Positions 17,346 through 37,179 of a stretch of 64,000 nt of DNA are shown piece after piece; positions within the stretch are counted from its first letter, which is position 1; every line of letters begins with the position of its first letter. The translations under genes and the position numbers were made by a program. Source of the stretch: Marinobacter sp. LQ44 (GTDB taxonomy: Bacteria > Pseudomonadota > Gammaproteobacteria > Pseudomonadales > Oleiphilaceae); the NCBI RefSeq assembly GCF_001447155.2, contig NZ_CP014754.1:1674001-1738000 (forward strand). The letters run 5' to 3'. The notes under the pieces were generated by a model. That model searched no databases and was not told where the DNA came from. It saw nothing but the letters and a program-made list of their open reading frames with translations.

Positions 17346-17358
17346 TGGTACTTTGGAA
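17346..17358 (-). promoter_or_regulatory. Island motif 1, pqqA / NosR-like intergenic copy
   Basis: TTCCAAAGTACCA on the minus strand. It is one of six related 13-mers in this island. It lies 104 bases upstream of the pqqA start and 110 bases upstream of the divergent NosR-like gene. In relation to the latter it has the same orientation and distance as the copies before exaC, pedH, exaB and erbR. The role as a regulator site is inference. Confidence 0.5.
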
Positions 17359-17468
17359 CTGTTTTCCGCCGGCTGAAAGTAGCAGTGGTTTGCCCCCGAG
17401 GTTGAATTGAGTCCAGCCCCCAACGGCCTAGCATGGGAGAAGAACAAGAATAACCTCAGGAGACCACC

Positions 17469-19580
17469 ATGGCCGGGCGCTTTCTGCTCTCGCTACTGCT
17501 TTGTTGTCTGGCTGCAACACCCCTGCGGGCAGAACTTTCCGACGACACCCGGCAGATCATCCAGGAACTGTTTCCCTCGGCCACCATTATCGAAGAGCAA
17601 CTGGCGGATTTCCCGGTGTATCCGGTTTACCAGCTCCAGGAACTGCTGGGTTACGCCTACGTTTCAACAGACTTCAGCAAATTGCCGGGCTTCGCCGGCA
17701 AGCCGATTACCATGATGATCGGCCTCGATACACGGGGTCGTTTCACCGGCGTGCGGGTACTGCACCACCACGAGCCGGTATTCCTTCATGGCCTGGGGGA
17801 GGAATCGCTCTACGAGTTTGTCGATCAATACGAGGGGCGCGCACTGACGGAGCAGATTGTGGTGAGTTCCTCGGGCCGTTCGGGCCGGACCTCCTCCGGC
17901 AATGTGGTGTACTTTGATGGCGTCAGCAAGGCCACGGTGTCGGTTCTGATCATCAACGATTCGGTGCTGTCCTCGGCCCTACAGGTGGCCCGCAACAAGC
18001 TTGAGGGCTTCGCCCAGGCTGCCCCCACCCGGGCCCGCCAGGACCTTTACGAACCGCTTACCTGGGAGCAACTATTGGAACGGGGTTACGTGACACGTCT
18101 GGAGGTCACGGCCGAGGAGGTGGAACAGCGACTGGGCCGCCCGCTGTCGGATTATCCTGGCAACCTTGAGCCCGATGACGGCGAGGCTTTCTCGGAACTC
18201 TATCTGGCCTATATGAACTCCCCTATGGTTGGACGCAACCTGCTGGGAGAGGAGCGATACCGGGCCTTCCGGGAGCGCCTCGGCGACAACGGCAAAGTAA
18301 TGCTGGTGCTGTCGCGGGGCCGTTATCCCCACGTTGGCGATAACTTTGTGCCGGGCAGCACCCCCGACCGATTTGGTCTGAGCCAGAATCAGCTGTCTGT
18401 TGAGATGCGAGACCTGAACTGGCTGGAAAACGGCCAAAGCTTCGCCGCTGCCGGTATGCCGGAGATGACGGCGGTCAACCTGTTCCGGGTGGGCGGTAAC
18501 GCCGGCTTTAATCCTGGGGCTGAGTCCACTCTGACGCTGAATGCCGTGTTGGCCCGCAACCATCTGGTGGTGGACACCGCCCGTTTCGAGCTGCCGGTAG
18601 CCTTCCCGGAAGAGCTGTTTGAGACCGTAGACATTGCTGCCGGACCGACGCAGCACCGGGCGCCCATGTGGATTGGGCTCTGGAAGGAACGCTGGTGGCA
18701 AATCACCTTACTGGTGCTAAGCCTCACGGTACTGACGATTTTCTTTGCCCGCCAGAAAACCCTGACCCGGCATCCGAAGCTGGTTCACCGGTTCCGCTGG
18801 GGCTTCCTGTTCTTCACCCTGTTCTTTATCGGCTTCTACGCCCAGGGCCAGTTGTCGGTGGTGAATATCTACACCTTACTGCTGGCCATCAAGGATGGTT
18901 TCAGCCTGAACATGTTCCTGCTGGACCCGGTGATCTTTATCCTCTGGACCTACACGTTCGTCACCCTTTTCATCTGGGGTCGGGGGGTGTTCTGTGGCTG
19001 GCTGTGCCCGTTTGGCGTGCTGCAGGAGATGGCCTCCTGGCTGGGCCAGAAACTCCGGTTCCGGCAGATCAAGGTACCGGAGCGCTGGCACCGGAAGCTG
19101 ATTCTGATCAAGTACCCGGTGCTGCTGGCCATCGTTATTGCTTCGTTTTATTCGCTGACGCTGGCGGAACAGCTATCTGAAGTGGAACCCTTCAAAACCA
19201 GCATCACGTTGTTCTTCGTGCGCTACTGGCCGTTTGTGGTCTATGCGGTGGCACTGCTGGCGGTGGGTATGTTTATCCACAAGTTTTACTGCCGTTACCT
19301 GTGCCCCCTGGGGGCAGGCCTGGCGGTATTGGGCAAGTTCCGGATTTTCAGCTGGCTGGAGCGGGTTGACCGTTGCGGACAGCCCTGCCAGCACTGCAAG
19401 AATGCCTGTGGCATCAACGCCATTCGCAAGGATGGCCGGATCGATTATGACGAGTGTATCCAGTGCCTGGAGTGCGTGGTGATTCTCCGCGACCAGAACC
19501 AGTGCGTGGATGCCATTGTCCGCAACAAGCAGCAACAAAAGCAGGCACGGATTCTGGCCACGGACGCGGCCGGGGCCTGA
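17469..19580 (+). CDS. NosR-like FMN-binding, polyferredoxin-type membrane protein
   Basis: A 703-residue membrane redox protein. Order: signal peptide (1-21), periplasmic FMN-binding domain (about 75-180) with the covalent-flavin type motif DGVSKATVS (T156 the likely attachment site), a long periplasmic linker, then five or six membrane segments from about 410 to 605. Two CX3CP motifs follow (CGWLCP 509-514, CRYLCP 608-613), then a ferredoxin-like tail with C636, C640, C643, C647 and C663, C666, C669, C679. This is the architecture of NosR/NirI, which feed electrons to N2O reductase. No nos genes are nearby; instead it is divergent from pqqA. It may exchange electrons with the PQQ system or its maturation (inference). 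Confidence 0.85.
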   Translation: MAGRFLLSLLLCCLAATPLRAELSDDTRQIIQELFPSATIIEEQLADFPVYPVYQLQELLGYAYVSTDFSKLPGFAGKPITMMIGLDTRGRFTGVRVLHHHEPVFLHGLGEESLYEFVDQYEGRALTEQIVVSSSGRSGRTSSGNVVYFDGVSKATVSVLIINDSVLSSALQVARNKLEGFAQAAPTRARQDLYEPLTWEQLLERGYVTRLEVTAEEVEQRLGRPLSDYPGNLEPDDGEAFSELYLAYMNSPMVGRNLLGEERYRAFRERLGDNGKVMLVLSRGRYPHVGDNFVPGSTPDRFGLSQNQLSVEMRDLNWLENGQSFAAAGMPEMTAVNLFRVGGNAGFNPGAESTLTLNAVLARNHLVVDTARFELPVAFPEELFETVDIAAGPTQHRAPMWIGLWKERWWQITLLVLSLTVLTIFFARQKTLTRHPKLVHRFRWGFLFFTLFFIGFYAQGQLSVVNIYTLLLAIKDGFSLNMFLLDPVIFILWTYTFVTLFIWGRGVFCGWLCPFGVLQEMASWLGQKLRFRQIKVPERWHRKLILIKYPVLLAIVIASFYSLTLAEQLSEVEPFKTSITLFFVRYWPFVVYAVALLAVGMFIHKFYCRYLCPLGAGLAVLGKFRIFSWLERVDRCGQPCQHCKNACGINAIRKDGRIDYDECIQCLECVVILRDQNQCVDAIVRNKQQQKQARILATDAAGA

Positions 19581-19581
19581 A

Positions 19582-20565
19582 TCAGCCCGCTACGGGAATA
19601 ACGATACGACCGCGGATCTTGCCGTCCATGAGACGGCTGGCCGCATCGATGGCATCATCGAAGGCCACTTCGGTGATCATACTGTCGAGCAGCTCCGGGG
19701 ACAGGTCCTCGGCCAGTCGTTTCCACGCGTAAAGGCGGTCTGCTTTCGGGGCCATCACACTGTCGATGCCACACAGGGTCACGCCGCGCAGGATGAACGG
19801 TGCCACGGTGGACGGGAAGTCCATGCCGGCGGCCAAGCCGCAGGCCGCGACCACACCCTGGTATTTCATACCGGCGCAGACATTCGCCAGCACCTGGCCA
19901 CCAGCCACATCGATGGCCCCGGCCCAGGTCTCGCGGGCGAGGGGTTTACCCGGTTCACTCAGCTCAGCGCGATCCATAATCTGCTTGGCGCCCAGCGACT
20001 TCAGATAAGCTTCTTCTTCCTTTCGGCCGGTCACCGCGGTCACGGAATAACCCAGCTTGGCCAGAATGGCGACGGCCACACTGCCAACACCACCGGTGGC
20101 ACCAGTCACCAGAATATCGCCAGACCCAGGCTTCACGCCGTGCTTCTCCAGGGCGATGACACACAGCATGGCGGTGTAACCGGCGGTACCAATGGCCATG
20201 GCCTGACGAGCCGTGAACGGAGCTTGTAAGGGGATCAGCCAGTCGCCGGACAACCGGGCTTTCTGGGCCAAGCCGCCCCAGTGTTTCTCACCCACACCCC
20301 AGCCGTTCAGCACCACTTCGTCTCCGGCCTTGAAGTCGGGATTGGACGATTCAGTAACCACACCGGCCAGATCAATACCCGGCACCATCGGATAGGTCTT
20401 GGCAATGGGCGCACGGCCGGTAATGGCCAGAGCGTCCTTGTAGTTCAGGGTGCTGTATACCACATCCACAGTCACGTCGCCTTCCGGCAACTGCGCTTCA
20501 TCTATGGACTTCAGGGACACCTGCTGGTCGCCCCGGCTGCCTTCGATCAGAATACCTTTGAACAT
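19582..20565 (-). CDS. acuI: Acrylyl-CoA reductase AcuI/YhdH-type oxidoreductase
   Basis: A 327-residue zinc-free medium-chain dehydrogenase. The N-terminal GroES-like domain contains [21 protein letters not shown] and PGIDLAGVV. The NADPH-binding motif is [15 protein letters not shown]. AcuI/YhdH proteins reduce acryloyl-CoA to propionyl-CoA and are quinone-reductase-like. It is convergent with the NosR-like gene, separated by a single base, and may protect against reactive enals or take part in propanoid/C3-alcohol metabolism (inference from location). A general quinone reductase activity is the alternative. Confidence 0.88.
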
Positions 20566-20686
20566 ATGCCCTCCTCCAATCAGCGGCCAAAGTAAACGCC
20601 AGAGCGCCGGCGGTCAGCCTCAGCCAAAAATATAATTTACGAAGTCTCCCTCACTGTAGCGTAAACGGCTGTAAAAATAGAGGAAT

Positions 20687-20708
20687 AAAAAAGGCCCTGG
20701 GAAGGGCC
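20687..20708 (-). terminator. Rho-independent terminator downstream of exaC
   Basis: On the minus strand GGCCCT pairs with AGGGCC across a four-base loop and is followed by six T. It lies about 130 bases after the exaC stop, leaving a stretch (20709-20840) in which I see no gene. Confidence 0.85.
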
Positions 20709-20840
20709 TAAGGAGAGTGTAGAAGATCCCGCGCTCCCGAAGGAGCTACCTGACAAATGCCAGGCCAACAATGTGCACCGTCCCTGTGCGGTCACACGAA
20801 ACGGGACCCGTGTGGATGGGCCCCAACTGCCACTTGCAGA

Positions 20841-22361
20841 TCAGAAGAACCCGAGTGGGTTGGTGTCATAGCTGGTCAACATGCACTTGGTCTGCTGGTA
20901 ATGCTCCAGCGCCATCTTGTGGGTTTCACGGCCAACACCGGACTTCTTGTAACCACCGAACGCGGCATGGGCCGGGTACGCGTGGTAACAGTTCATCCAT
21001 ACCCGACCGGCCTGAATGTTGCGGCCCATCCGGTAAGCAAGATTAGTGTCGCGGGTCCAGACGCCGGCACCCAGGCCAAACTCGGTGTCGTTGGCGATGG
21101 CCAAGGCTTCTTCCTCAGTCTTGAAGGTGGTGACACCCACCACCGGGCCGAAGATTTCTTCCTGGAACACACGCATCTTGTTGTCGCCCTTGAACAGGGT
21201 CGGCTGGATGTAGAAGCCGTTGTTGAATTCACCTTCCAGATGCTCACGGTCACCACCGGTCAGCACAACCGCGCCTTCCTGACGGCCAATCTCCATGTAC
21301 GACATGATCTTGTCGAACTGTTCCTTGGACGCCTGGGCACCCACCTGAACGTCGGTATCCAGCGGGTTGCCACGCTTGATGGCCTTGGTGCGCTCAACCA
21401 CTTTCTGCATAAATTCTTCGAACATGTCTTCCTGAACCAGCGCCCGTGACGGGCAGGTGCAGACTTCGCCCTGGTTGAAGAACGCCAGCACCAGACCTTC
21501 CACGCACTTGTCGATGAACTCCGGCTCAGCCTTCATCACGTCAGAGAAGTAAATGTTCGGTGACTTGCCACCCAGCTCAACGGTAGACGGGATAATGTTT
21601 TCAGCCGCGCACTTGAGGATGTGGGAGCCCACCGGGGTGGAGCCAGTAAAGGCGATCTTGGCAATGCGCTTGCTGGTGGCCAGAGCCTGGCCGGCTTCAA
21701 TACCGTAGCCGTTAACAATGTTGAGCACGCCCGGCGGCAGCAGGTCGCCGATGACTTCCATCAGTACCAGAATGCTGGCAGGGGTCTGCTCGGCGGGCTT
21801 CAGCACCGTGCAGTTACCGGCCGCCAGGCACGGGCCCAGCTTCCAGGCCGCCATCAGCAGCGGGAAGTTCCAGGGGATAATCTGGCCAACCACACCCAGC
21901 GGCTCGTGGAAATGATAAGCCACGGTGTTGTGGTCGATTTCGCCCATATGGCCTTCCTGGGCACGCAGGCAGCCGGCGAAGTAACGGAAGTGGTCCGCCG
22001 CCAGGGGAATATCGGCGTTCAGGGTTTCGCGAACGGCCTTGCCGTTGTCCCAGGTTTCCGCCACCGCGAGCTTCTCGAGATTGGCTTCAATGCGGTCAGC
22101 AATTTTCAGCAGGATGTTGGAACGCTCGGTGGGAGACGTCTTGCCCCAGGCCGGCGCTGCTTTGTGGGCGGCGTCCAGCGCCAGCTCGATGTCTTCAGCG
22201 GTCGAGCGCGGGATCTCACAGAAAGCCTCGCCAGTGACCGGCGTTATGTTCTCAAAATACTGGCCCTTAACCGGCGCTACCCATTCACCGCCAATGTAGT
22301 TCTCATAGCGGGATTTAAAAGAAACAACGGAGCCGTCCTTTCCTGGTTGTGCGTAGATCAT
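20841..22361 (-). CDS. exaC: NAD-dependent aldehyde dehydrogenase ExaC
   Basis: A 506-residue cytoplasmic aldehyde dehydrogenase that oxidises acetaldehyde and other aldehydes made by the PQQ dehydrogenases. Catalytic residues are the Glu in VELGGKSPN and the Cys in [20 protein letters not shown] is the nucleotide-binding loop. The last residues [15 protein letters not shown] are typical of the ExaC/AcoD group. The ATG at 22361 was chosen for AGAGGT upstream. It has its own promoter region with a copy of island motif 1 and its own terminator. Confidence 0.94.
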
Positions 22362-22476
22362 GATATCGACCTCTTTGTTGTGTTTGTCGCATGGCAACGC
22401 GGCCTTTCGCGTTTACTCATTCAATGTAGACCCCATGCCGGATTCCGTGAATGCGTCGTTGGGGGCGAAAAACTCG

Positions 22477-22489
22477 TTCCTTGGTAGTA
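22477..22489 (+). promoter_or_regulatory. Island motif 1, exaC copy
   Basis: TTCCTTGGTAGTA, with the adjacent bases GACGCTT also resembling the exaB/pedE copy. It lies 115 bases upstream of the exaC start, on the strand opposite to the gene. Candidate response-regulator site. Confidence 0.5.
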
Positions 22490-22516
22490 GACGCTTTGAG
22501 CAGCTATGCTGAAAAA

Positions 22517-22543
22517 GCAAAAAGGGCTGCCCGAAGGCAGCCC
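22517..22543 (-). terminator. Rho-independent terminator downstream of pedH-like gene
   Basis: On the minus strand GGGCTGCC pairs with GGCAGCCC across a TTCG tetraloop, followed by TTTTTGC. It begins 24 bases after the dehydrogenase stop codon. Confidence 0.9.
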
Positions 22544-22566
22544 AAAGGTCGATCAGTCAAGACAAC

Positions 22567-24342
22567 TTACTTGCCAGCCACCCGGTCTTTCGGCAGTTTG
22601 AAAGTCCAGACCATGCCGCCCTGGTTAAAGTCTCTGACCACCTTGGCCACTTCACCCCCCCAAAGCGGAACCGCACCACCCCAACCGGAGGCGACGGAGA
22701 CGAATTGCTCGCCGTCCATCTCCCAGGTCACCGGGGTACCAACCACCCCGGAACCGGTGTTGAACTTCCAGAGCTCTTCGCCGGTTTTGGCGTCAAAGGC
22801 TTTCAGGAAACCTTCCGGTGTGCCGGTGAACACCAGGCCACCGGCGGTCGTCATTACGCCACCCCACAGTGGAGCCGGGTTGTTCTGGCGCCAGACTTCT
22901 TTACCGGTTTTCGGGTCCATGGCACGCAGCACGCCGATAAAGTCATCGTTAGCCGGCTTGATGGTGAAGCCTGCCCCCAGATAAGCAGCGCCTTTCTTGT
23001 AGGACACGGGCTCGTTCCAGATGTCCATGGACCACTCGTTGGAAGGCACATAGAACAGTTCGGTATCCGGGCTGTAAGCCATTGGCATCCAGTTCTTGCC
23101 GCCCAGGAAGGCCGGGAAGGCGACAACGGTTTCACCCTTTTCCCCATCCAGGTCCGCCGGGTTACCCGGGCGACCGCCTTCTTTCAGGATCGGGCGACCG
23201 GTTTTCGGGTCAAGGCCGGTTGCCCAACTGATGGTGTCGACAAACGGGAAACCGCGAATGAACGAGCCATCCTCACGGTTGAGCACGTAGAAAAACCCGT
23301 TACGGTCCGCGGTGGCTGCCGCTTTGATGGTTTTTCCTTTTTCTTTCAGATCAAAGGAAATCAGCTCATTAACACCATCGTAATCCCAGCCATCATTTGG
23401 GGTAGTCTGGAAATGCCACTTGATGCTGCCGTCGTTCGGATCGATCGCAACCCGAGACGCGGAGTACAGGTTATCCCCAGGGCGCAGGTGCGAGTTCCAG
23501 GGAGCCGGGTTACCGGTACCGAAGAACAGGGTATCGGTTTCCGGATCGTAGGTGCCGCCCAGCCACGTTGCCGCGCCGCCGGTCTTCCACATGTCACCAG
23601 GCCAGGTCTTGCCTGCCTCGCCACCGGAAATACCGTTCTCGACTTTCTTGCCATCCTTGTAGACGTAGCCCATGTGGCCCTCAACCGTCGGGCGGGTCCA
23701 AAGCAAATCACCGGTGTTGGCGTCATAGGCTTCAACCTTACCCACGATACCGAACTCCCCCCCAGACACGCCGGTAATCAACTTGCCGTTGACCACGATG
23801 GGCGCAGCTGTGATGGCATAGCCTTCCTGGTAATCGGCAACCTTCTTGATCCAGACCACCTTACCGGTGTCTTTATTGAGCGCGACCAGCTTGGCATCCA
23901 GAGTACCGAAGTAAACCTTGTCACCATATATGGCAGCGCCCCGGTTGATCACGTCACAGCAGGGCATAATGCCGTCGGGCAGGCGGGCATCGTACTGCCA
24001 CAGTTCTTCACCGGTGCGAGCGTCTACTGCCCACATGCGGGAGTAGGAACCGGTCACGTACATTACGCCATCTTTGATCAGCGGTTGCGATTCCTGGCCA
24101 CGCTGTTTCTCTCCACCGAAGGAGAACGCCCACGCTGGCTGGAGATATTTAACGTTTTTGGTGTTCAGGGTTTTCATAGGGCTGTAGCGCTGGCCCTGAT
24201 AGCCCATGCCGTAGGTAACGATACTGTCGATGCTTTGATGGTCGTTCAGCAGGTCTTGGTCGGTGACCGCGTGGGCCCCGAAGGAAACGGCTAATGCAAG
24301 GGCACTGGCCGCAAAGGTCTTGCCGATCGCGATTGATCTCAT
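22567..24342 (-). CDS. pedH: PQQ alcohol dehydrogenase, lanthanide type (PedH-like)
   Basis: A 591-residue periplasmic quinoprotein that oxidises alcohols to aldehydes. Signal peptide 1-25 (AHA cleavage). The eight-bladed propeller carries the vicinal disulfide C128-C129 (MPCCDV), metal ligands E196 (GGEFG) and N278 (GTGNPAPWN) and catalytic D320. The residue two after it is D322 (WDYDG). This extra Asp marks lanthanide-dependent enzymes such as XoxF and PedH. The ATG at 24342 follows GGAGAACG; the frame is open 30 codons further upstream but that part has no signal peptide. It has its own terminator and both candidate cis-motifs upstream. Metal choice is inferred from the motif. Confidence 0.9.
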
Positions 24343-24387
24343 GGTTGCGTTCTCCAATTCTCTTGTTTTCAGATTCGATAGCGAACC

Positions 24388-24401
24388 GGGAACTTTTCCC
24401 G
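24388..24401. promoter_or_regulatory. Island motif 2 (palindrome), pedH copy
   Basis: GGGAACTTTTCCCG, an inverted repeat GGGAA-N3-TTCCC. It lies 45 bases upstream of the pedH start, close to where a core promoter should be. The identical 14-mer occurs before the pedE-like gene. Candidate operator; which regulator binds is unknown. Confidence 0.5.
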
Positions 24402-24466
24402 CCTCTCTACCCATTCTTGTTGGCCCCCGCATTTACAACAATTAACCCCACGCACAGGTTTTCTCA

Positions 24467-24479
24467 TCACTTGGTAGTA
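24467..24479 (+). promoter_or_regulatory. Island motif 1, pedH copy
   Basis: TCACTTGGTAGTA, 124 bases upstream of the pedH start and opposite in strand to the gene, between the terminator of the binding-protein gene and motif 2. Confidence 0.5.
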
Positions 24480-24495
24480 AGACTCCGCCAGAAAC

Positions 24496-24520
24496 GAAAA
24501 AGCCCGCACTGGGGCGGGCT
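24496..24520 (-). terminator. Rho-independent terminator after the binding-protein gene
   Basis: On the minus strand AGCCCGC pairs with GCGGGCT across a 6-base loop, followed by TTTT. It isolates exaB and the binding protein from the downstream pedH promoter. Confidence 0.85.
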
Positions 24521-24538
24521 GGATTCGGTCCACAAAGG

Positions 24539-25468: not shown

Positions 25469-25503
25469 TCACCCTCCTGACGACGAATCATCACCAAACC
25501 GGA

Positions 25504-25932
25504 TTACTCCGGCTTGGGCAGCGATTCAACGTAGGTGCGAATGGCCCAGATCGCAGTCTGATCCAGGTTGTCCTTGAAGGAGGGCATACCGCGGCCGGTG
25601 CCGTTGGTCACCCGACCAATAAAATATTCGTCGTCCCACTCTTCCAATTCACGAAGATCCGGTGTCAGGCCGCCGGACATGGCCTCAATGCCATGGCACA
25701 CGGCACAGTTACCGGCATAGCCACTGCGCCCGACTTTGATCGCCTCTTCGTTGAGTGAGCCATGTTCGTTGCCCTCACGGAACGGATTTTCCGCGCGCAG
25801 CTCCTTGCCCAGGTCGGGCAAGGCACCGGTATCAACCGGTTGCGGTGTCACATCCCCGTGAGACCAGGCGGAGGAAGCGCCAACAGACAAAGTGGCAACG
25901 AGCAGGGTTCGAATGAAAACGTGTGTCAGCAT
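25504..25932 (-). CDS. exaB: Cytochrome c550 ExaB/PedF-like
   Basis: A 142-residue periplasmic monohaem cytochrome c, the electron acceptor of PQQ alcohol dehydrogenases. Signal peptide about 1-24, haem motif CAVCH (C76, C79, H80), probable Met ligand in GRGMPSFKD. It is divergent from the calcium-type dehydrogenase and precedes the MoxJ/PedG-like gene. It could serve both PQQ dehydrogenases since only one such cytochrome is present in the island. Confidence 0.92.
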   Translation of the reverse strand: MLTHVFIRTLLVATLSVGASSAWSHGDVTPQPVDTGALPDLGKELRAENPFREGNEHGSLNEEAIKVGRSGYAGNCAVCHGIEAMSGGLTPDLRELEEWDDEYFIGRVTNGTGRGMPSFKDNLDQTAIWAIRTYVESLPKPE

Positions 25933-26061
25933 GGTTAGACCACCTCTTGTTTTGAATCACGATGGCTGGCGCTGTTTTTGTGTGACGTCAACCAGCAGCT
26001 TTCCACAAGTATGGTGAGGCCGTGCTAGCGATAGAATGCCACTTTCGCTTTCAGACACTAG

Positions 26062-26074
26062 TTCCTTAGTAGTA
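26062..26074 (+). promoter_or_regulatory. Island motif 1, exaB/pedE copy
   Basis: TTCCTTAGTAGTA followed by AACGCTGAGAG, the copy closest to the exaC site (TTCCTTGGTAGTAGACGCT). Same strand relation and distance to exaB as the exaC and pedH copies have to their genes. Confidence 0.5.
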
Positions 26075-26157
26075 AACGCTGAGAGTCAACGCCAAAGCAT
26101 GAGTTTCCGCATTACCCATATAGAACGCCCGGTTTTTCATGATGATGGCCGTACCTT

Positions 26158-26171
26158 GGGAACTTTTCCCG
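26158..26171. promoter_or_regulatory. Island motif 2 (palindrome), pedE copy
   Basis: GGGAACTTTTCCCG, identical over 14 bases to the pedH copy, 129 bases upstream of the pedE-like start. Confidence 0.5.
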
Positions 26172-26300
26172 AATCCTGTTGGTTTCATCCCATTGATCCG
26201 ATGCTTTTTTCCGTCGCCACAGCGTCCCCCCAAGCCAATACTCGTGGCGTCGATGCCTTGAGCAAGACGATGGGTACAACAAAAAACAAGGGGAAAGACA

Positions 26301-28157
26301 ATGAACTTCAAGACACGCAAGCGCCCGCTACTGCGGGGGATAGGACTGGCTCTGGCCCTCGGATCAGCGGTAGGTCTCGCCAGCCAGGCAAATGCTGGAA
26401 ACGTAACCTGGGAAGATATCGCCAATGATGCACAAACAACCGAGAACGTGCTGGGCTACGGCATAGGCCCCAAGGCCCAACGATACAGCCCGATGACCAC
26501 CATCAACCGGGACAACGTGGAACGACTGGTTCCGGCCTGGTCATTTTCGTTTGGCGATGAAAAACAACGGGGGCAGGAATCCCAGGCACTGGTTCATGAC
26601 GGTGTTATCTATGTAACCGGCTCCTACTCTCGCATGTGGGCCCTGGATGCAAAAACCGGAAAACGGCTATGGGAATACAGTCACCGGCTGCCAGAAGGCA
26701 TTCGCCCCTGTTGCGATGTGGTCAACCGTGGCGCTGCCATTTTTGGTGATAAAGTATTCTTCGGTACTCTGGATGCGGGCATTGTTGCCCTGAACAAGGA
26801 TACCGGTAAGGTCGTCTGGCGAAAGAAATTCGGTGACCACGAAGCCGGCTACACCATGACCGGCGCACCCACGCTCGCGAAGGATCAGAAGACCGGTAAA
26901 GTTTTGCTGATTCACGGATCCTCAGGTGATGAATTTGGCGTTGTAGGCAAGCTGTTTGCCCGAGACCCGGATACCGGCGAAGAAATCTGGATGCGCCCGT
27001 TCGTCGAGGGCCATTATGGCCGTCTCAACGGTAAAAAAAGCACGCCAACCGGTGATCCTCGCGCGCCCAGTTGGCCCGACGACGCCTCCCGTGACACCGG
27101 TAAGGTTGAAGCCTGGAGTCATGGCGGTGGAGCCCCCTGGCAAAGCGCCAGCTTCGACGCGGAGACCAACACCATCATCATCGGTGCCGGCAATCCCGCA
27201 CCCTGGAACACCTGGGCCCGCACATCACCGGGTGGCAATCCTCAGGATTATGACAACCTCTATACGTCAGGACAGGTTGGCGTAGACCCCACAACAGGTG
27301 AGGTGAAGTGGTTCTATCAACACACACCGAACGATGCCTGGGATTTTTCCGGTAATAACGAGCTTGTGCTGTTTGAGTACACAGATGACGGGCGTGAGGT
27401 AAAAGCCACCGCGCACGCTGACCGCAATGGCTTTTTCTACGTGGTCGACCGCACGAACGGCAAGCTCGAGAAAGCGTTCCCATTTGTTGACAATATTACC
27501 TGGGCCAGCCACATCGACCTGGAGACAGGCCGCCCCGTGGAAAGAAAAGGCCAGCGCCCACCACCCGTCCCGAAGGGTGAAACCCGTGGCGAATCCATCG
27601 AAGTCTCTCCGCCCTTCCTGGGTGGCAAAAACTGGAATCCTATGGCTTACAGTCAGGACACCGGGCTGTTCTACATACCCGCCAACCACTGGAAAGAAGA
27701 TTACTGGACCGAAGAAGTTACCTACAAGAAAGGGGCTGCCTATCTGGGACAAGGCTTTCGAATCAAGCGAATGTATGACGACCACGTAGGCATCCTTCGA
27801 GCCATGAACCCACTCACCGGCGAGATCGAATGGGAACACAAAGAGCGGTTGCCACTTTGGGCCGGCGTTCTGACCACCAAAGGCGGCCTTGTGTTCACAG
27901 GCACTGGAGACGGCTACCTGAAGGCATTCGATGCCAAGACCGGTGAGGAACTTTGGAAATTCCAGACCGGCTCGGGAATCATCTCTTCGCCGATCACCTG
28001 GGAGATGGATGGCGAGCAATACATAGGCATCGCCTCCGGCTACGGCGGTGCAGTTCCGCTTTGGGGCGGCGATATGGCCGAACTGACCAAACCTGTCTCC
28101 CAGGGAGGTTCGTTCTGGGTATTCAAGATGCCCTCCTGGGCACAGGCCTCCCGCTAA
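26301..28157 (+). CDS. pedE: PQQ alcohol dehydrogenase, calcium type (PedE/ExaA-like)
   Basis: A 618-residue periplasmic quinoprotein alcohol dehydrogenase. Signal peptide about 1-32, vicinal disulfide C137-C138 (RPCCDV), metal ligands E211 (GDEFG) and N298 (GAGNPAPWN), catalytic D348. Two residues later is S350 (WDFSG) instead of Asp, the pattern of calcium-dependent PedE. It differs from the other dehydrogenase by an insertion near residues 245-270 ([11 protein letters not shown]) and a loop near 305-318. RBS GGGGAAAG fixes the start. It is followed by a strong terminator. Substrates are probably short and aromatic alcohols, as in the Pseudomonas homologues. Confidence 0.92.
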
Positions 28158-28171
28158 CGTTCCTCCGGACT

Positions 28172-28879: not shown

Positions 28880-28891
28880 ACCAGGGCGGGC

Positions 28892-29548
28892 TCAGACCCG
28901 CCTTGCTTCCTCCAGCTGACCATAGCGAACAAGGCCAGCATCCACCGCCAGATGAATCAGCTCCACTGACGAGGAAACCTGAAGCTTGCTCTTCAGGCCC
29001 GCCAAGTGGTTAGACACTGTCTTGTTGCTGACGCACAATCGACCAGCGATACCTGAAACACTCTCACCCCGGGCATACATCAGAAGAACCTCCATTTCCC
29101 TTTGGGTCATATCCCTGAGCCGATGATCTACCGGCCGCTCCTGGTTCATTGCCAGACGGGTCGCAATCGGATGCTCGATGTAGGGCTGGCCAGCAGCGAC
29201 CCGTTTCACCGCTTCAGCCAACTCCTCCGGGGCGCAGCTTTTTGAGACAAACCCCAAACCGCCAATATCCAGAGCCTGCCTGACCATGGGCAGCTCATCG
29301 TGCATGGTGAAGAAAAGAATGGCCGCCCCACGCCAGCGCTGTCGCAGTCGGCGACCAACCTCCAAACCAGAGATATCGGGAAGCCCCATATCTAGTAACA
29401 CCACATTTGGCCGCAACCATCCATAGCAAGCGACCGCATCCTCGCCGTTGTCGACTTCGGTGATCGCCACCGCAGGCAGCATTGAACGCAGGAGATTCGC
29501 AATCCCCTGGCGAACGACCTGGTGATCATCCACAATCATGAGCTTCAC
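28892..29548 (-). CDS. exaE: NarL-type response regulator ExaE/EraR/PedR2-like
   Basis: A 218-residue two-component regulator: receiver domain (about 3-118) with D53 in VVLLDMGLPD, and a LuxR-type HTH (about 145-215) with VSGIAGRLCVSNKTVSNH. I chose the GTG at 29548 because GGGGAG lies six bases upstream and it overlaps the kinase stop (GTGA). An ATG eight codons upstream lies inside the kinase. In Pseudomonas this regulator controls exaA/pedE and, with the lanthanide-responsive kinase, the switch to pedH. Likely binder of one of the island motifs (inference). Confidence 0.88.
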   Translation of the reverse strand: MKLMIVDDHQVVRQGIANLLRSMLPAVAITEVDNGEDAVACYGWLRPNVVLLDMGLPDISGLEVGRRLRQRWRGAAILFFTMHDELPMVRQALDIGGLGFVSKSCAPEELAEAVKRVAAGQPYIEHPIATRLAMNQERPVDHRLRDMTQREMEVLLMYARGESVSGIAGRLCVSNKTVSNHLAGLKSKLQVSSSVELIHLAVDAGLVRYGQLEEARRV

Positions 29549-30777
29549 AGGATGCTCCCCGGGATTGGGCACAGTCGGGAAAGCGGGACGGCAAGCCGGA
29601 TTCGGGTGCCCTCGCCCATTCGACTGAAGAACTTTACTTCACCACCCAGGCATCTGGCTCGCTCACGCATGGACCGCACACCCAGGCCGGCGTTGTCGGG
29701 CAGACAATCGTTTCCGACGCCATCATCACGTACCTCAATGCTCAGTTCCGTGGCGTTAAGGGCTACCGCCAATGTCGCGCAGGATGCATTGGCATGACGG
29801 GATACGTTGTTCAAGGCCTCCTGGAGAAACCGGTACAGGTGTGTCTGTTGCTCACCGGTAAATTCTGGCAGGCGGTCGTCCATCGCAAGGCGACACTCCA
29901 GGCCGCTAAGCTGTTGCCATTGTTCGGTCAGATGCCGGATTGCGCTGCCCAGACCCAACTGCTCCATCACCAGCGGATGCAAATCCTGGAGCAGGTGACG
30001 GAAATGCCTCTGGATGGTCTCACAGTTTTCCGCCAGGTCACTGGCCTGTTTCTTCTGCCGATCGTTCAGGCCGGAATCGTAGAGCAGGCTTCGCGCCTGG
30101 GCACGGATACCCGTCAGGTATTGCCCCAGGTCGTCATGGAGTACGCGGGCGATATGTTCACGCTCCCGGTCCTGCAACCGAAGCAGTTCGTTGAGCAGTC
30201 GACTGACGGTCTGCTGTTCCACCTGAAGCGCCTCGGCCATGGTATTGAAACGGCAAACCAGGGAGTCCAGTTCTTGTTCTTGCTGACGCGGTAGCCGGGA
30301 AGTGAGTTGACCCGCCGAGATTGCCCCCATGGCTTCAGAGAGGCTGGCGAGGGTACGCATGCCGCGCCTGACCATAACAAACAGCGCGAGGAAGCACAGG
30401 CAGGTACCAATCGCGTAGGCACCGGAAACCAGCAGGAACCCTTCCCAGATTTCCTCAACCTCATCGGCGGGATCAACCTGCCAGCCATTAATCACTGGCC
30501 GGTGGAGTTCTCTGGCAATCAGTGCTGAGAACCAGGCCGGCACATCCCTGCTTAGGCCAGAACCTGTATCACCCGCCGGCGTCAGGTGACGCATGCCGCT
30601 AACGACAGATTCCGGGAGATCGTCGGGGCTTTCCAAACTCTGTGCAAGCCCGGCAACACCGTCAAGTTCCCGCTGGACATCATGGCGGGCCTGCTGGATA
30701 TAAAACAGCGCTCCGAGCAGATAGATGAGCAGAAAAACCGCCAGCATCAATAGAGATATCTTCCGATATACCGTCAT
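29545..30777 (-). CDS. exaD: Membrane histidine kinase ExaD/EraS/PedS2-like
   Basis: A 410-residue sensor kinase. TM1 (about 8-27), a periplasmic loop of roughly 85 residues, TM2 (about 114-137), HAMP (about 138-190), HisKA_3 domain with H214 in ARVLHDDLGQYLTG, and a C-terminal ATPase with the N-box EALNNVSRHA. The loop contains an acidic stretch DPADEVEE (102-109). PedS2 of P. putida responds to lanthanides from the periplasm; the same role here would explain the paired dehydrogenases, but the ligand is inferred. Co-transcribed with the regulator by overlap. Confidence 0.88.
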   Translation of the reverse strand: MTVYRKISLLMLAVFLLIYLLGALFYIQQARHDVQRELDGVAGLAQSLESPDDLPESVVSGMRHLTPAGDTGSGLSRDVPAWFSALIARELHRPVINGWQVDPADEVEEIWEGFLLVSGAYAIGTCLCFLALFVMVRRGMRTLASLSEAMGAISAGQLTSRLPRQQEQELDSLVCRFNTMAEALQVEQQTVSRLLNELLRLQDREREHIARVLHDDLGQYLTGIRAQARSLLYDSGLNDRQKKQASDLAENCETIQRHFRHLLQDLHPLVMEQLGLGSAIRHLTEQWQQLSGLECRLAMDDRLPEFTGEQQTHLYRFLQEALNNVSRHANASCATLAVALNATELSIEVRDDGVGNDCLPDNAGLGVRSMRERARCLGGEVKFFSRMGEGTRIRLAVPLSRLCPIPGSIL

Positions 30778-30847
30778 TGTTTTTATCCATTGCGGGTAAA
30801 CAGCCTGTCCACCCTCATGCTAAACCCGCCAGCTTTAACCGGAATAG

Positions 30848-30860
30848 TTCTTTAGTACTG
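30848..30860 (+). promoter_or_regulatory. Island motif 1, exaD / ABC-module copy
   Basis: TTCTTTAGTACTG lies between the divergent exaD and the ABC-module operon, 70 bases from the former and 80 from the latter. It is the least well-spaced of the six copies. Confidence 0.42.
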
Positions 30861-30940
30861 GCACTTTCCTACTTTCTGAATATTTCACCGGCATTGCCCC
30901 TTCTCTAAGCTGGAATTACAACAATAAACCGGAGAATCCA

Positions 30941-32113: not shown

Positions 32114-32154
32114 CCCTGCGCGGCGCCAACCTGAAAACAAGAAGGAGTAACACC

Positions 32155-33129: not shown

Positions 33130-33848
33130 CCATTGAAGCCCGGGACATCAGCTTCCACTACGGAGACAAAGCGGTTCTGAAGGAGGTCAGCTTCGCGCTG
33201 AGCTCTGGCCGTTTCCATGCACTTCTGGGCCCAAACGGGGCAGGTAAATCCACCCTGTTTGGCTTGCTCACCCGGCTACTGGCCTTGCAGCAGGGCGATG
33301 TCTTGCTGGGCGGCCAGTCGCTCAGAAAACAGCCCGCAGAGGCGATGCGGAAGATCGGCGTGGTGTTCCAGCAGAATGCCCTGGATCTGGACTTGTCCGT
33401 TCGCCAGAATCTGCACTACCACGCCGCGCTGCATGGCCTGTCCCGCAAAGAAGCCCGGGCCCGTGGTGACCGGGAGCTGACCCGGTTCAATCTGCTCGAC
33501 CGGGCCGACGACGCGGTTCGCCAGCTCAATGGGGGGCACCGGCGGCGGGTGGAAATTGCGCGTGCACTGCTTCATCAACCCTCCCTGTTACTTCTGGATG
33601 AGCCCACCGTAGGCCTCGATGTCGCCAGCCGGCGGGCACTCAACGAACACGTTCGGACCCTGTGCGAGCAAGACGGGCTGACCGTACTCTGGGCCACGCA
33701 CCTGATTGAAGAGGTTCAGGAGCAAGACAAGGTGTTGATTCTGCACCAGGGCCGCTTGCTGGCAAACGGCACGGGACAGGTGATCTGCGAGGAGCAAGGC
33801 GCACAGAATCTGGCAGACACGTTCCACAAACTGACCGGAGCCGGCTGA
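33126..33848 (+). CDS. ABC transporter ATP-binding protein, PQQ alcohol system (PedB-like)
   Basis: A 240-residue ABC ATPase. Walker A is GPNGAGKST (about 36-44), Walker B LLLLDEPTVGLD, H-loop WATHLIEE. The signature is LNGGHRRRVEIARA instead of the usual LSGGQ, a natural variant seen in drug/Nod-factor-type exporters. It is closest in style to the ABC-2 export ATPases. Overlaps the propeller gene and is followed by its permease after one base. Homologous to the pedB type of Pseudomonas. Confidence 0.88.
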   Translation: MTIEARDISFHYGDKAVLKEVSFALSSGRFHALLGPNGAGKSTLFGLLTRLLALQQGDVLLGGQSLRKQPAEAMRKIGVVFQQNALDLDLSVRQNLHYHAALHGLSRKEARARGDRELTRFNLLDRADDAVRQLNGGHRRRVEIARALLHQPSLLLLDEPTVGLDVASRRALNEHVRTLCEQDGLTVLWATHLIEEVQEQDKVLILHQGRLLANGTGQVICEEQGAQNLADTFHKLTGAG

Positions 33849-33849
33849 T

Positions 33850-34653
33850 ATGAAAGCCATCGATTATTGGCACTGTTTTATGGGCATCCAGACCCGGGAA
33901 TGGCTCAGGTTCTGGCAGCAACGCACTCGCTTTGCCAGTGCGCTGGTGCGGCCCCTGCTCTGGCTGGTGGTATTCGCCGCCGGGTTCCGGGCGGTTCTGG
34001 GCATTTCCATTATCCCCCCGTACCAGACCTACATCACTTATGAAACCTACATCGTGCCCGGACTGTGCGGCATGATTATCCTGTTCAACAGTATGCAGGG
34101 GGCCCTGTCGATGGTGTATGACCGGGAACTGGGCAGCATGCGGGTGCTGTTGATGAGCCCCCTGCCCAGGCCATTTCTGCTGATTACCAAACTGCTGGCC
34201 ATGGGTTTTGTGTCAGTGGCCCAGGTTTATGTTTTTCTGCTGATCGCATGGCTGGTTGGCGTAGAGCCACCCCGATGGGGGTACCTGGCGATTCTGCCCG
34301 CATTGATCCTCACCAGCCTGATGCTGGGCGCACTGGGATTGCTGATAGCCACCTGGATAAAACAACTGGAGAACTTCGCGGGGGTGATGAACTTTGTCAT
34401 TTTCCCGATGTTCTTTATGTCTTCGGCCCTGTATCCGCTGTGGCGCATGAACGAAGCCAGCCCGTGGCTTTACTGGATCTGCCAGTTCAATCCGTTTACC
34501 CACGCAGTTGAAGCGATCCGGTTTTCACTCTACCTGGAATGGAACCCTCTGGCCGTCGGCATAACCGCCGGCGTGACCATCGTACTTTCGCTGTTCGCTA
34601 CCGCGGGTTTTCGCCCCCAGCGGACGAAAATCCTGGGGAGCAAGCCCGCCTGA
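33850..34653 (+). CDS. ABC-2 type permease, PQQ alcohol system (PedC-like)
   Basis: A 267-residue inner-membrane protein with six hydrophobic segments and the ABC-2 signature region (VYDRELGSMRVLLMSPLPR, then the FPMFFMSSALYPLW segment). ABC-2 permeases usually export. With the neighbouring ATPase it makes a complete transporter. It is the last gene of the operon beginning at 30941 and is convergent with the following ABC importer. The cargo is not known. Confidence 0.88.
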   Translation: MKAIDYWHCFMGIQTREWLRFWQQRTRFASALVRPLLWLVVFAAGFRAVLGISIIPPYQTYITYETYIVPGLCGMIILFNSMQGALSMVYDRELGSMRVLLMSPLPRPFLLITKLLAMGFVSVAQVYVFLLIAWLVGVEPPRWGYLAILPALILTSLMLGALGLLIATWIKQLENFAGVMNFVIFPMFFMSSALYPLWRMNEASPWLYWICQFNPFTHAVEAIRFSLYLEWNPLAVGITAGVTIVLSLFATAGFRPQRTKILGSKPA

Positions 34654-34665
34654 TCCGGTCGAGTG

Positions 34666-35337
34666 TCAGGAGCCCACTCTATCCAGCCTCCTCAGCTGCT
34701 CCAACAACTCGCGAACGGCTCCCGACTCCACCACCCGGTCGTCCCATTGCAACCTTGCCGGCTTACCATCGAGGTACCAGAGCCGGTTTGCCAGTAACTC
34801 TGCATCACCGCTGTCGTGGGTCACACAGATCATGGCCATATCCGGGTTTGCGTCCAATATGCCGGCAATCAGCTGTTTCAGATCTCCCGCCATGATCGGG
34901 TCGAGCGAGGCAAAGGGCTCGTCCAGCAGCAAAAGATCCGGCTTGACTGCCAGACAGCGGGCCAAAGCAGCACGGCGCGCCATCCCCAGTGAAAGCTGAT
35001 CCGGCAGGTAATGGCCATAACCGGCCAGACCAACCTGTCGCAACAGGTGCTCAGCCTCCTCATCGCTCGCGCCCACCAGCCGGAGGTTGGCTTTCAGGCT
35101 TCGCCAGGGCAACAGCCGATGCTCCTGAAACAGGTACCCGACTCGCAGTGTTTCACGACCAACCACCGCACCGGCCGGCATTGAGTTATCCAGGCCGGCG
35201 ATGGCATTGATCAGCGTGGTCTTACCGATGCCAGACGGCCCCAGCAAGCAGATGCGGTCGCCACGCTTGATGGTGGCAAAAACTTCGCCCAGCACGGGCT
35301 GTGCATAGTCTCGACCGCGTATTCTCAGCTCAAGCAT
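34666..35337 (-). CDS. NitT/TauT-type ABC transporter ATP-binding protein
   Basis: A 223-residue ATPase with Walker A GPSGIGKTT, signature LSLGMARRAALARCL (degenerate LSGGQ) and Walker B LLLLDEPFASLD. The start ATG at 35337 overlaps the permease end by eight bases, so the three genes form one operon (binding protein, permease, ATPase). It belongs to the nitrate/taurine/aliphatic sulfonate importer group, but is short and lacks other specificity clues. Confidence 0.85.
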   Translation of the reverse strand: MLELRIRGRDYAQPVLGEVFATIKRGDRICLLGPSGIGKTTLINAIAGLDNSMPAGAVVGRETLRVGYLFQEHRLLPWRSLKANLRLVGASDEEAEHLLRQVGLAGYGHYLPDQLSLGMARRAALARCLAVKPDLLLLDEPFASLDPIMAGDLKQLIAGILDANPDMAMICVTHDSGDAELLANRLWYLDGKPARLQWDDRVVESGAVRELLEQLRRLDRVGS

Positions 35338-36106
35338 GGGCCTGCTCCGGCTGTCGCCAGCGATTAGCCCGCCTTTCCACAGGCTGTAACAGCCCCAGTT
35401 CAATCAACTGCACAACGGCGATAAACGCCAGGCTGTAGGCCAGAATGGCGGCAACGTCGAACACCTGGAACGCCAGGTGCAGCTGAAAACCAATACCGCT
35501 GGAACGCCCCAGCAGTTCAACCACCAGAACGATTTTCCAGATCAGTGAAAGCCCTCCCCGGGTGGCCGCCATCAGATAAGGAAAGAGCTGCGGCACCCAC
35601 ACCTCACGGAGCCGCTGCCAGCGGGTAAATCCGTACACGGTAGCCATCTGTTCCAGCCGGTAGTCCAGGCTGCGTGCACCTTCTCGGACTGTGACGGCAA
35701 CGTTCGGGATCTTGTTGATAACAACCGCCATCACCGCGGCCGCTTCCACCAGCCCGAACCAGACATACATCAGTATGATCGTGACCAGCGCAGGCAGGTT
35801 CAGAAGCAACACCAGCATGGGATCAAACAGTGCGTTGGCGGTGCGCGACCGACCCATCACAATGCCGATACACGTACCCAGCAGCATCGCCAGGGTAAAC
35901 GCCACCGCGACCCGTGCCAGCGTGGCGCCCAGATGGAACCAGAGTTGACCGCCCCGCGCTTCCTTCATCAAGGTTTCCAGCACCTGCAATGGTCCGGGTA
36001 GCAGCGGGGACTCCAGGTGCCAGGCAAACAGTCCCCAGCACACAATAAACAGCGGCAGTACCAACCAGTAGCTCCAGAATGGCGGGTGACCTGTCTGGCT
36101 GCTCAC
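35330..36106 (-). CDS. NitT/TauT-type ABC transporter permease
   Basis: A 258-residue inner-membrane protein of the BPD_transp_1 family with about six hydrophobic segments. The EAA-type cytoplasmic loop is visible as EQMATVYGFTRWQRLREVWV (about 151-170). It overlaps the binding-protein gene (ATGA-like) and the ATPase gene. Substrate unknown. Confidence 0.87.
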   Translation of the reverse strand: MSSQTGHPPFWSYWLVLPLFIVCWGLFAWHLESPLLPGPLQVLETLMKEARGGQLWFHLGATLARVAVAFTLAMLLGTCIGIVMGRSRTANALFDPMLVLLLNLPALVTIILMYVWFGLVEAAAVMAVVINKIPNVAVTVREGARSLDYRLEQMATVYGFTRWQRLREVWVPQLFPYLMAATRGGLSLIWKIVLVVELLGRSSGIGFQLHLAFQVFDVAAILAYSLAFIAVVQLIELGLLQPVERRANRWRQPEQAHA

Positions 36107-37131
36107 GGCGGGCTCCGGTAGAACAGGGCTTCGGGCATCAGGGCCTCGGTATCAGCGCCTGTAAGCACCAGCAGCCGCTGGAGATCGCCACGGCGCTGCT
36201 CGGTCAGCGGCGCCGGGGTGCCCGCCACAAAGCCATCCCGCAGGGCTTCGAACACGGCCTCTGTGGACTGCCCCATCAGAGGCCTTAACCGCTGCCAGTG
36301 CGATGGTTCACCGGCCAGCTCGGCTTTTGCCTGTTGCAGCGAACGGGCAAAGCGTTCAATCAACCCGGCATGCTGTTGCGCCCATTCTGAGGGAAAGACA
36401 TAACCCAGTACCGGCAGGTTTGGGTCCAGGTCCAGAGCCCTGAGCAGGTCCGCCATCCCGAAAGCCGAACGCCAGCCGCCCTCGCCTCTGAGCCGGGCAG
36501 AGAAGTGCCAGTAGGTGACGATGGCATCAACCTGCTCACGCTTTAGCGCCTGGTTCAGTAGTGGCGGGGCGGCGAACTGCACCCGGGCATCTTGAGCCAG
36601 ATCGATACCCTGTCGCTCTGCCACCTTGGTCAACAGCACCCAGCCCTTGCTGTCCGGCCCGCCGGCTACGCCGATGCGTTTGCCTGCCAGGTCAGCCACC
36701 GAGCGAATCGCAGACGCCTCCGGCACGACGATATCCCCGATCTGGCTTGAGAACGGCACATACAGGTAGGGGGTGCCAGCTTGGAATCGAGACTGCGCCC
36801 AGAGCAAATCGGCCACCGCGCCATGCACGGAACCACTGGTGACTGCCAGCCGTGACGCCGGCAAATTCGCCACCAGTTTCAGATCAAGCCGATAGCCGTT
36901 CTTCTGGTCCAGCTTTCTGTGTTGCAGATGATCCAGCTCCCAGTGGGCGGTACCGAACTGAAGCACGCTGATGCTGAGAACGGGCAAGCCTGCCGGTTCC
37001 TGCGAATAGCCGTTGTCCGGTGTTACCAGAAAAACCACGGCAAACACCAGGCTGAGTGCGCGAAAGCCCCGTGAGAACCACCCCTTGAGGCCCGGGTGTA
37101 CGGCTTGAGTTATTCTTGTGTGATGCTTCAT
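36103..37131 (-). CDS. NitT/TauT-type ABC substrate-binding protein (SsuA/NMT1-like)
   Basis: A 342-residue exported binding protein. The signal peptide lies within about 20-45 (FRALSLVFAVVFLVTPDNGYS), and the mature part contains IRSVADLAGKRIGVAGGP, the hinge motif of the SsuA/ThiY group. The ATG at 37131 was chosen because the 88 upstream in-frame codons look non-coding and run through the promoter region. Island motif 1 lies only 36 bases upstream. The transport substrate is unclear; a thiamine-precursor, sulfonate or unusual ligand cannot be separated by sequence. Confidence 0.8.
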   Translation of the reverse strand: MKHHTRITQAVHPGLKGWFSRGFRALSLVFAVVFLVTPDNGYSQEPAGLPVLSISVLQFGTAHWELDHLQHRKLDQKNGYRLDLKLVANLPASRLAVTSGSVHGAVADLLWAQSRFQAGTPYLYVPFSSQIGDIVVPEASAIRSVADLAGKRIGVAGGPDSKGWVLLTKVAERQGIDLAQDARVQFAAPPLLNQALKREQVDAIVTYWHFSARLRGEGGWRSAFGMADLLRALDLDPNLPVLGYVFPSEWAQQHAGLIERFARSLQQAKAELAGEPSHWQRLRPLMGQSTEAVFEALRDGFVAGTPAPLTEQRRGDLQRLLVLTGADTEALMPEALFYRSPP

Positions 37132-37166
37132 GCCATCACGATACGAAGCCCTCAGCCCTTCAAGAA

Positions 37167-37179
37167 TAGTACTTTGGTG
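37167..37179 (-). promoter_or_regulatory. Island motif 1, erbR copy
   Basis: CACCAAAGTACTA on the minus strand, 122 bases upstream of the erbR start, opposite to that gene, matching the geometry at exaC, pedH and exaB. It is also 35 bases from the importer operon start. Confidence 0.48.

Follow-up and report, generated by a model that had tools for sequence, protein, structure and literature searches.

The described operator closest to the element reported here is the ACTU box, an inverted repeat that reads, for instance, TACTACCATCGTCGAAT at acs and is needed by the LuxR-type response regulator CrbR/ErdR (Sepulveda and Lupas 2017, PMC5715377). Genes for alcohol oxidation dependent on pyrroloquinoline quinone (PQQ) form the regulon of AgmR/ErbR/PedR1, with the targets exaB/pedF, exaC/pedI, exaDE/pedS2R2 and pqq (PMC13390443, PMC12997753), and in the PedS2/PedR2 switch phosphorylated PedR2 activates pedE and represses pedH (PMC6115532). 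The DNA analysed here is a 64-kb window of the 4.44-Mb single-contig genome of Marinobacter sp. LQ44 and carries a cluster of such genes; the closest relatives of its ExaA likewise point to Marinobacter as the host. Six sites in the cluster, reported in a preliminary description as a recurring 13-bp motif, are not a chance occurrence. They represent a real conserved operator, here called box 1, which is most likely that of ErbR. It is related to the ACTU box and adds an operator to a regulator already known. A second palindrome, box 2, is found upstream of the two alcohol dehydrogenase genes.

Box 1 shares several traits with the ACTU box as the latter appears in the sections of PMC5715377 drawn on here. 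Both are imperfect inverted repeats of ~17 bp with a TACTAC half-site, both lie just 5′ of a sigma-70 promoter, and both are linked to a LuxR-type response regulator. However the right halves differ, being of the GTC type in ACTU and G[GA]A or GTA in box 1. In addition, ACTU has acs and actP as targets and occupies positions -52 to -36 at acs, whereas box 1 has two phasings and fronts alcohol genes, not acs or actP; the acs upstream region has its own weak ACTU-like site, with 2 mismatches. The parts of the AgmR/ErbR/PedR1 sources (PMC13390443, PMC12997753) drawn on contain no operator sequence; here a box is proposed for the same targets, and pedH and erbR are added to these. The 2018 study of the switch (PMC6115532), in the portions used, called the activator of pedH unknown and gave no cis-element, and ErbR is proposed here for that role. 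No operator of ErbR/AgmR/PedR1 or of PedR2 was found in the accessible parts of the open-licence literature, which also included portions of PMC8402216, PMC9927353, PMC8546858 and PMC8041468.

Extent, conservation and promoter phasing of box 1

The six 13-mers were each confirmed in position and strand. The consensus proposed for them, YYCYWWRGTASYR, fits four of the six sites but misses those at 24467 and 37167. With A permitted at position 3 it has five matches in the window, all of them reported sites, where 0.48 are expected in first-order Markov sequences; this count alone is weak evidence, since the consensus was drawn from the same sites. The recurring element is real but longer than 13 bp: it is an imperfect inverted repeat of 16-18 bp, with TASTACYWWRGTASTA as its ideal form. 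The constant strand and distance that had been described hold, with gaps between 13-mer and start codon of 110 nt (NosR-like gene), 115 nt (exaC), 124 nt (pedH), 129 nt (exaB) and 122 nt (erbR). Assignment of the first site to the NosR-like gene agrees with its distance, but the site is shared with the divergent gene pqqA, which had been overlooked and starts 104 nt away on the other side. The fifth site (30848) serves exaD, 70 nt away, which had also been missed. The candidate ErbR boxes of the window are as follows.

17344..17361, minus strand: box of pqqA, shared with the divergent NosR-like gene; -10 TACGAT at 17317-17322 (minus), phasing +30
22473..22490, minus strand: box of exaC, CTACTACCAAGGAACGAG; -10 TACATT at 22423-22428 (minus)
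24463..24480, minus strand: box of pedH, TTACTACCAAGTGATGAG; -10-like AAGAAT at 24413-24418 (minus)
26058..26075, minus strand: box of exaB/pedF, TTACTACTAAGGAACTAG; -10-like CATACT at 26008-26013 (minus), manual count
30844..30861, minus strand: box of exaDE, CCAGTACTAAAGAACTAT; 16.6 bits, outside the training set; -10 TAGCAT at 30817-30822 (minus)
37167..37182, plus strand: box of erbR, TAGTACTTTGGTGCCT; -10-like TGTAAT at 37228-37233 (plus)

At exaC (GGAACGAG), exaB (GGAACTAG) and pedH (GTGATGAG) the right half is not of the GTC type.

The regions upstream of exaC, pedH and exaB were compared in the window and in 80 loci with close ExaA relatives (Marinobacter, Marinobacterium, Pseudomonas, Stutzerimonas, Halopseudomonas and others). 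Unseeded motif discovery by expectation maximization gives box 1 as the top motif upstream of each of these three genes (n = 17, 25 and 53 de-duplicated sequences for exaC, pedH and exaB), with log likelihoods of 141, 293 and 488, compared with 44-71 after shuffling. The best sites have a single orientation relative to the gene: 25/25 for exaC, 39/39 for pedH and 73/73 for exaB. It should be noted that site-score counts for exaC, pedH, exaB and pqqA come from matrices scored on their own training sequences. Compiled from 137 sites, with those scoring below 14 left out, the motif is represented by 77 distinct 19-mers. Read in the direction of the gene it is CTACTACCAAGGGASKAG, an inverted repeat in which one half-site is strong and the other weaker; a further comparison covered 65 of the 77 distinct 19-mers and the window pedH site. 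Near-perfect repeats are also present: CAGTACTTTAGTACTG at erbR of locus L042, TCAGTACTAAAGTAGTAG at one pqqA and TCAGTACCAAGGTAGTAA 5′ of exaD in several loci. The window exaD site at 30844 scores 16.6 bits with a matrix trained without it, a score for which ~0.03 sites are expected in the window by our own arithmetic. A matrix scan of 1.66 Mb yields 193 hits where ~8 are expected, 167 of them no more than 450 nt upstream of a cluster gene, a result that is partly circular. Strong hits near the contig ends of L100 and L065 were considered as pqqA boxes and rejected, as both front exaC.

Box 1 is also positioned relative to a -10-like hexamer, with offsets measured from the repeat centre to the first base of the hexamer. 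TAnnnT offsets were counted for sites above 12 bits (pqqA, above 10; erbR, exact pattern), de-duplicated except for erbR, with n below the gene counts. TAnnnT lies at +53 in 18/19 exaC sites, at +53 or +54 in 46/59 exaB sites and at +30 or +31 in 35/41 pqqA sites; the shuffled count never exceeds 6 at any offset. For exaD this count had n = 6 and was later widened to 49 upstreams, where 24 of the 25 sites with at least 12 bits, and 41/49 of all best sites, have TAnnnT at +30 or +31. With patterns picked after the sequences had been viewed, A[AG]NAAT is at +53 in 37/37 pedH upstreams (37 of 39 used) and [TC][GT]TAAT is at +52 to +54 in 30/36 erbR upstreams. All six window sites obey the rule: +53 for exaC, exaB (CATACT, counted manually), pedH and erbR, and +30 for exaD and pqqA. 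There are two promoter phasings, not one, and they are 23 bp apart. With the hexamer taken as the -10 element, the repeat centres would lie near -65 and -42; likely positions are near -65 at exaC, exaB, pedH and erbR, and near -42 at exaD and pqqA. Two helically equivalent positions 23 bp apart are the expectation for class I and class II activation. The earlier interpretation, a shared activator site, is supported by the strand and distance, which are fixed in the comparative data.

The pqqA assignment was examined in another genome set, in which unseeded discovery in pqqA upstreams gives CAGTnCSAAAGTACCATW (log likelihood 401, compared with 71 and 67 in shuffled sequences). Three loci of this set (L229-L231) yielded no gene by the expression used, and L211 and L238_1 are the same gene. 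A site above 10 is present in 45/63 pqqA rows, always in one orientation and 70-112 nt from the ATG, and these rows include 6 of 7 second-copy pqqA genes. An assignment of the first site to the NosR-like gene alone was rejected because pqqA, 104 nt away, shows the standard phasing and because most second copies of pqqA have the site as well; only pqqA, not the NosR-like gene, has standard promoter phasing from it. The same genome has a second gene for a pqqA-like peptide (1419746-1419805, L170), with the box-like GTCCAAAGTACCA upstream. A NarL gene precedes it by ~0.8 kb, a radical SAM/SPASM gene follows it, and an NnrS gene is nearby; comparable second copies occur in six further genomes among the 77 searched. 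As a separate observation, pqqA promoters of L213, L214, L233, L234 and L236 apparently have two boxes ~23-24 bp apart (-65 and -42), the second being weak in several.

In the 700 nt upstream of exaD, the highest-scoring sense site has at least 12 bits in 25/49 sequences (shuffled mean 0.33, maximum 2). It lies ~66-82 nt from the start in Marinobacter and one Halopseudomonas. In Pseudomonas and Stutzerimonas (L060-L099) it is ~500-540 nt from a start extrapolated from the window exaD and again has the +30/31 phasing; exaD may be longer in these loci, or another gene may lie in between. For erbR, the exact pattern NASTACTTTRG is found no more than 900 nt upstream in 36/41 loci (shuffled mean 0.025); one erbR locus and one exaD locus at contig edges were skipped. 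In 17 of these 36 loci the site is 650-880 nt upstream and possibly fronts a gene preceding erbR. The erbR site is retained in 11/13 aligned Marinobacter rows, counting the window and including L042 and L045. The neighbouring tauA-like gene for a component of an ATP-binding cassette system was considered as owner of the sixth site and rejected, because L042 and L045 keep the site while their exaE-erbR gap, at less than 1 kb, is too short to hold the tauA-like gene.

Genome-wide, TASTACYWWRGTASTA is matched with no more than two mismatches at 7 places and its reversed control at 48; three of the 7 are the exaB, exaC and exaD sites. The sequence TASTACYWWRGRASKAG has two exact matches (exaC and exaB) and 13 places within two mismatches, four of which are in the cluster. 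A sequence-only model, whose first pass scored 150 of 827 candidates, ranks exaC, exaB and pedH as the top three (E 0.02-0.17), all of which are in the training set. Of 12 other near hits, six are within coding frames, four either came from the search with the GTC-type ACTU pattern or are similar to it, and two are neither. The ACTU-like hits include weak ones upstream of an acetate-CoA ligase gene and a FadL-like gene. One of the two that are neither, the near-palindromic TAATACCATAGTAGAA at 3861826 (L261), 121 nt upstream of a gene for an AMP-binding enzyme and with a -10-like hexamer at +31, may be a further ErbR or ErdR target.

The probable regulator of box 1

Box 1 is, with considerable confidence, the operator of the LuxR/NarL-type regulator ErbR (AgmR, PedR1), which would act as a dual-position activator of PQQ alcohol-oxidation genes. 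That the box occurs, is conserved and keeps its orientation and phasing is observed directly; its binder, the transcription starts, class I or class II action and the autoactivation of erbR we infer. Box 1 stands at the genes that depend genetically on AgmR/PedR1, i.e., exaB, exaC (which we take to be pedI), exaDE and pqqA. According to the sections of the regulon sources used (PMC13390443, PMC12997753), pedF, pedI, pedE and pedS2R2 of P. putida depend on PedR1, the pedS2R2 promoter responds in E. coli once PedR1 is supplied, PedR1 alone being needed, and AgmR activates the ped core genes and pqq. ErbR is encoded in all 11 box-carrying genomes checked, which were chosen by us and not at random, while ExaE is missing from 2 of the 8 genomes tested, where only paralogues of 33-37% are present. 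In their DNA-binding helices (31 residues) ErbR and ErdR are identical at 20/31 positions and ErbR and ExaE at 9/31. The ErdR candidate of the genome adjoins the acetate-CoA ligase gene; it is the best match to the ErdR model, at 288 bits, below the cut-off of 390. ErbR is the best candidate because of the regulon match, its helix similarity to ErdR, and its presence in 11/11 genomes versus the absences of ExaE. The preliminary description had named EraR/ExaE or ErbR as the regulator; the evidence favours the latter, while ExaE is disfavoured and probably has its own box, CGGGAA-N3-TTCCCG.

The main alternative, which appears rather improbable, is that box 1 is the ACTU box bound by ErdR/CrbR, with the cluster a direct part of the acetate regulon. 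The left halves of ACTU (PMC5715377) and box 1 are the same, the helix residues common to ErbR and ErdR (20/31) point in the same direction, and a review and a P. aeruginosa study, in the parts drawn on, place ErdR above ethanol oxidation and exaA expression. However ACTU right halves are GTC-type while ped boxes are mostly G[GA]A- or GTA-type, and the same genome has separate ACTU-like sites 5′ of the acetate-CoA ligase and FadL-like genes. Moreover, the sections consulted on P. aeruginosa ErdR mapping record acsA, not ercS or agmR, and those on P. putida record that loss of erdR left ethanol use unaffected. Binding of box 1 by ExaE/EraR (PedR2), which is the local response regulator and one of the two named earlier, is very unlikely: it has few DNA-binding residues in common with ErbR (9/31), the box is kept at exaB in the ExaE-less L107, the PedR2-controlled exaA and pedH promoters have a different palindrome in common, and the pedS2R2 promoter requires only PedR1 in the portions of the sources used. 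An equally slight probability is given to the reading that box 1 is no operator but part of an extended core promoter or some other conserved DNA. Its fixed distances from a -10-like box would fit such an element, but the two discrete phasings ~23 bp apart, the imperfect dyad symmetry, the confinement to one functional set and the count of 7 near-palindrome sites in 4.4 Mb do not.

Several results weigh against the assignment of all six sites to one ErbR operator. In unseeded discovery box 1 is not the top motif within 300 nt upstream of erbR or of pedA1, nor for exaD or erbR after masking of strong box-1 hits; the exaD and erbR sites rest on targeted scans because other motifs ranked first. 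The window pqqA and erbR sites score below 7 with the exaC/pedH/exaB matrix, and the description as one motif therefore rests on the common core and phasing, these two sites being supported separately, by motif discovery for pqqA and by the targeted scan for erbR. A pqqA site is lacking in 18/63 rows, 16 from other genera and 2 from Marinobacter. Use of the first site by the NosR-like gene is only putative, the -10-like TAGCAT there being at +75 (manual count). There is no preferred TAnnnT offset in pedH, the commonest in erbR is +24 (10/32), and the -10-like patterns for both genes are post hoc. The right half-site is weak or variable, with pedH departing most. In the ExaE-less L107 the strong box at exaB (23.3 bits) is accompanied by a weak site at exaC, 5.7 bits. 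Finally, ErdR, a paralogue, could bind as well.

Under the preferred assignment to ErbR, a dimer of this protein, probably phosphorylated, would sit on the 16-18 bp imperfect inverted repeat, often with one strong half-site, and would activate a sigma-70-type promoter, as class I with a centre at ~-65 (exaC, exaB, pedH, erbR) or as class II at ~-42 (exaDE, pqqA). An alcohol signal would thereby be conveyed to the cytochrome, the aldehyde dehydrogenase, the lanthanide-type alcohol dehydrogenase and PQQ synthesis, and also to the second-tier ExaDE system and to ErbR itself; ExaE would then choose between the two dehydrogenases via its own box. PQQ-dependent alcohol oxidation has ErbR/AgmR/PedR1 as its master regulator, and a defined box with its phasing makes the regulon predictable from sequence. 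It also sets the ErbR regulon apart from the acetate regulon of the paralogue ErdR, names a testable pedH activator, and may aid the design of promoters for alcohol biosensors. Gliese and co-workers reportedly treated the AgmR/ErbR/PedR1 regulon in 2004. A 2021 study is said to have mapped P. aeruginosa response regulators by DNA affinity purification sequencing, and may contain an operator of ErbR/AgmR/PedR1 or of PedR2.

Box 2 and its proposed role in the lanthanide switch

Motif discovery upstream of exaA and pedH after masking of box 1 revealed a palindrome, CGGGAA-N3-TTCCCG, that is found in many genera. It occurs twice in the cluster.

24387..24401, minus strand: box 2 of pedH, palindrome CGGGAAAAGTTCCCG, with its centre ~12 nt past the predicted start
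26157..26171, plus strand: box 2 of exaA/pedE, TGGGAACTTTTCCCG, found by motif discovery after masking

The pedH box 2 is the only exact genome match to the pattern used, among the matches listed. With no more than 3 mismatches box 2 is present in 78/81 exaA upstreams and in 38/39 pedH upstreams, 33 of the latter being perfect. Upstreams of exaC, erbR and exaD mostly show four or five mismatches, and exaB shares the exaA region. Half of the pedA1 upstreams (20/40) have box 2 at 2-3 mismatches, and box 2 alone is not specific. At pedH the centre of box 2 is 77 or 78 nt from that of the ErbR box in 36/37 cases; at exaA it is ~124 nt (median) before the start codon.

Box 2 is proposed as the operator of ExaE/PedR2. 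In relation to the parts of PMC6115532 drawn on, it stands at both PedR2-switched genes, in an activator-like and a repressor-like position, and the opposite signs of PedR2 at pedE and pedH would be explained because the position of box 2 differs. The two boxes together may well constitute the cis-code of the lanthanide switch, a reading held with somewhat less confidence than that of box 1: ErbR at -65 would turn pedH on, ExaE/PedR2 would activate exaA and repress pedH by the position of box 2 alone, and ErbR boxes at -42/-65 would tie PQQ synthesis, exaDE and erbR to the same signal. Box 2 would thus give a position-based account of the lanthanide choice between alcohol dehydrogenases. The two ExaE-less genomes have weak box-2 matches, with 2 and 3 mismatches, at odd positions. 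Three points count against the box-2 model. L061, L101 and L102 have ExaE yet no clear exaA box (4 mismatches), no fixed TAnnnT offset from box 2 is found at exaA, and 213 genome places are within two mismatches of box 2, compared with 115 for the reversed control.

Genes of the cluster and adjacent motifs

Gene identities in the window were obtained with Pfam and NCBIfam profiles. By these the cluster comprises a NosR-like gene, exaC, two PQQ alcohol dehydrogenase genes (pedH-like and exaA/pedE), a cytochrome c550 gene, an exaDE-like two-component pair, pedA1A2BC, the response regulator gene erbR, and NahK-like and NosP genes. The names exaD, exaE, pedH and erbR were given because the genes resemble those of the ped cluster, in order and in sequence, as it is presented in the sections used of the review PMC12997753. 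The genes that bear on the boxes are as follows.

17170..17241, minus strand: pqqA, 23 aa, ATG at 17241 (TIGR02107, 45.6 bits, and translation)
17469..19580, plus strand: NosR-like membrane flavo-iron-sulfur protein, divergent from pqqA (NosR model below its curated cut-off)
20841..22361, minus strand: exaC, acetaldehyde dehydrogenase (profile match; start codon corrected)
22567..24342, minus strand: pedH-like PQQ alcohol dehydrogenase (profile match; start corrected)
25504..25932, minus strand: exaB/pedF, cytochrome c550 (TIGR04494)
26301..28157, plus strand: exaA/pedE, PQQ alcohol dehydrogenase (profile match)
28892..29572, minus strand: exaE (eraR/pedR2), response regulator, putative binder of box 2 (profile match, comparison)
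29545..30777, minus strand: exaD (eraS/pedS2), sensor kinase, first gene of the exaDE unit (profile match)
37302..38075, plus strand: erbR (agmR/pedR1), LuxR-type response regulator, putative binder of box 1 (Response_reg and GerE, on a longer open reading frame)

The erbR start at 37302 was set by its ribosome-binding site and by conservation. Since the NosR-like protein (17469-19580) is encoded divergently from pqqA and has a NosR score below the cut-off, a possible connection with PQQ metabolism may deserve attention. A third conserved block, TSCTACTTTCTGMATATTTC, is found at 30867-30886, ~54 nt 5′ of pedA1; 40/40 upstreams score above 8, in a single orientation. A-rich stretches, ACAACAA/ACAATAATAA, were seen by eye just 5′ of the ribosome-binding sites of exaC, pedH, exaA, erbR and the NosR-like gene, and these resemble the Crc motif AAnAAnAA, as that motif is cited in the sections of PMC5715377 drawn on.

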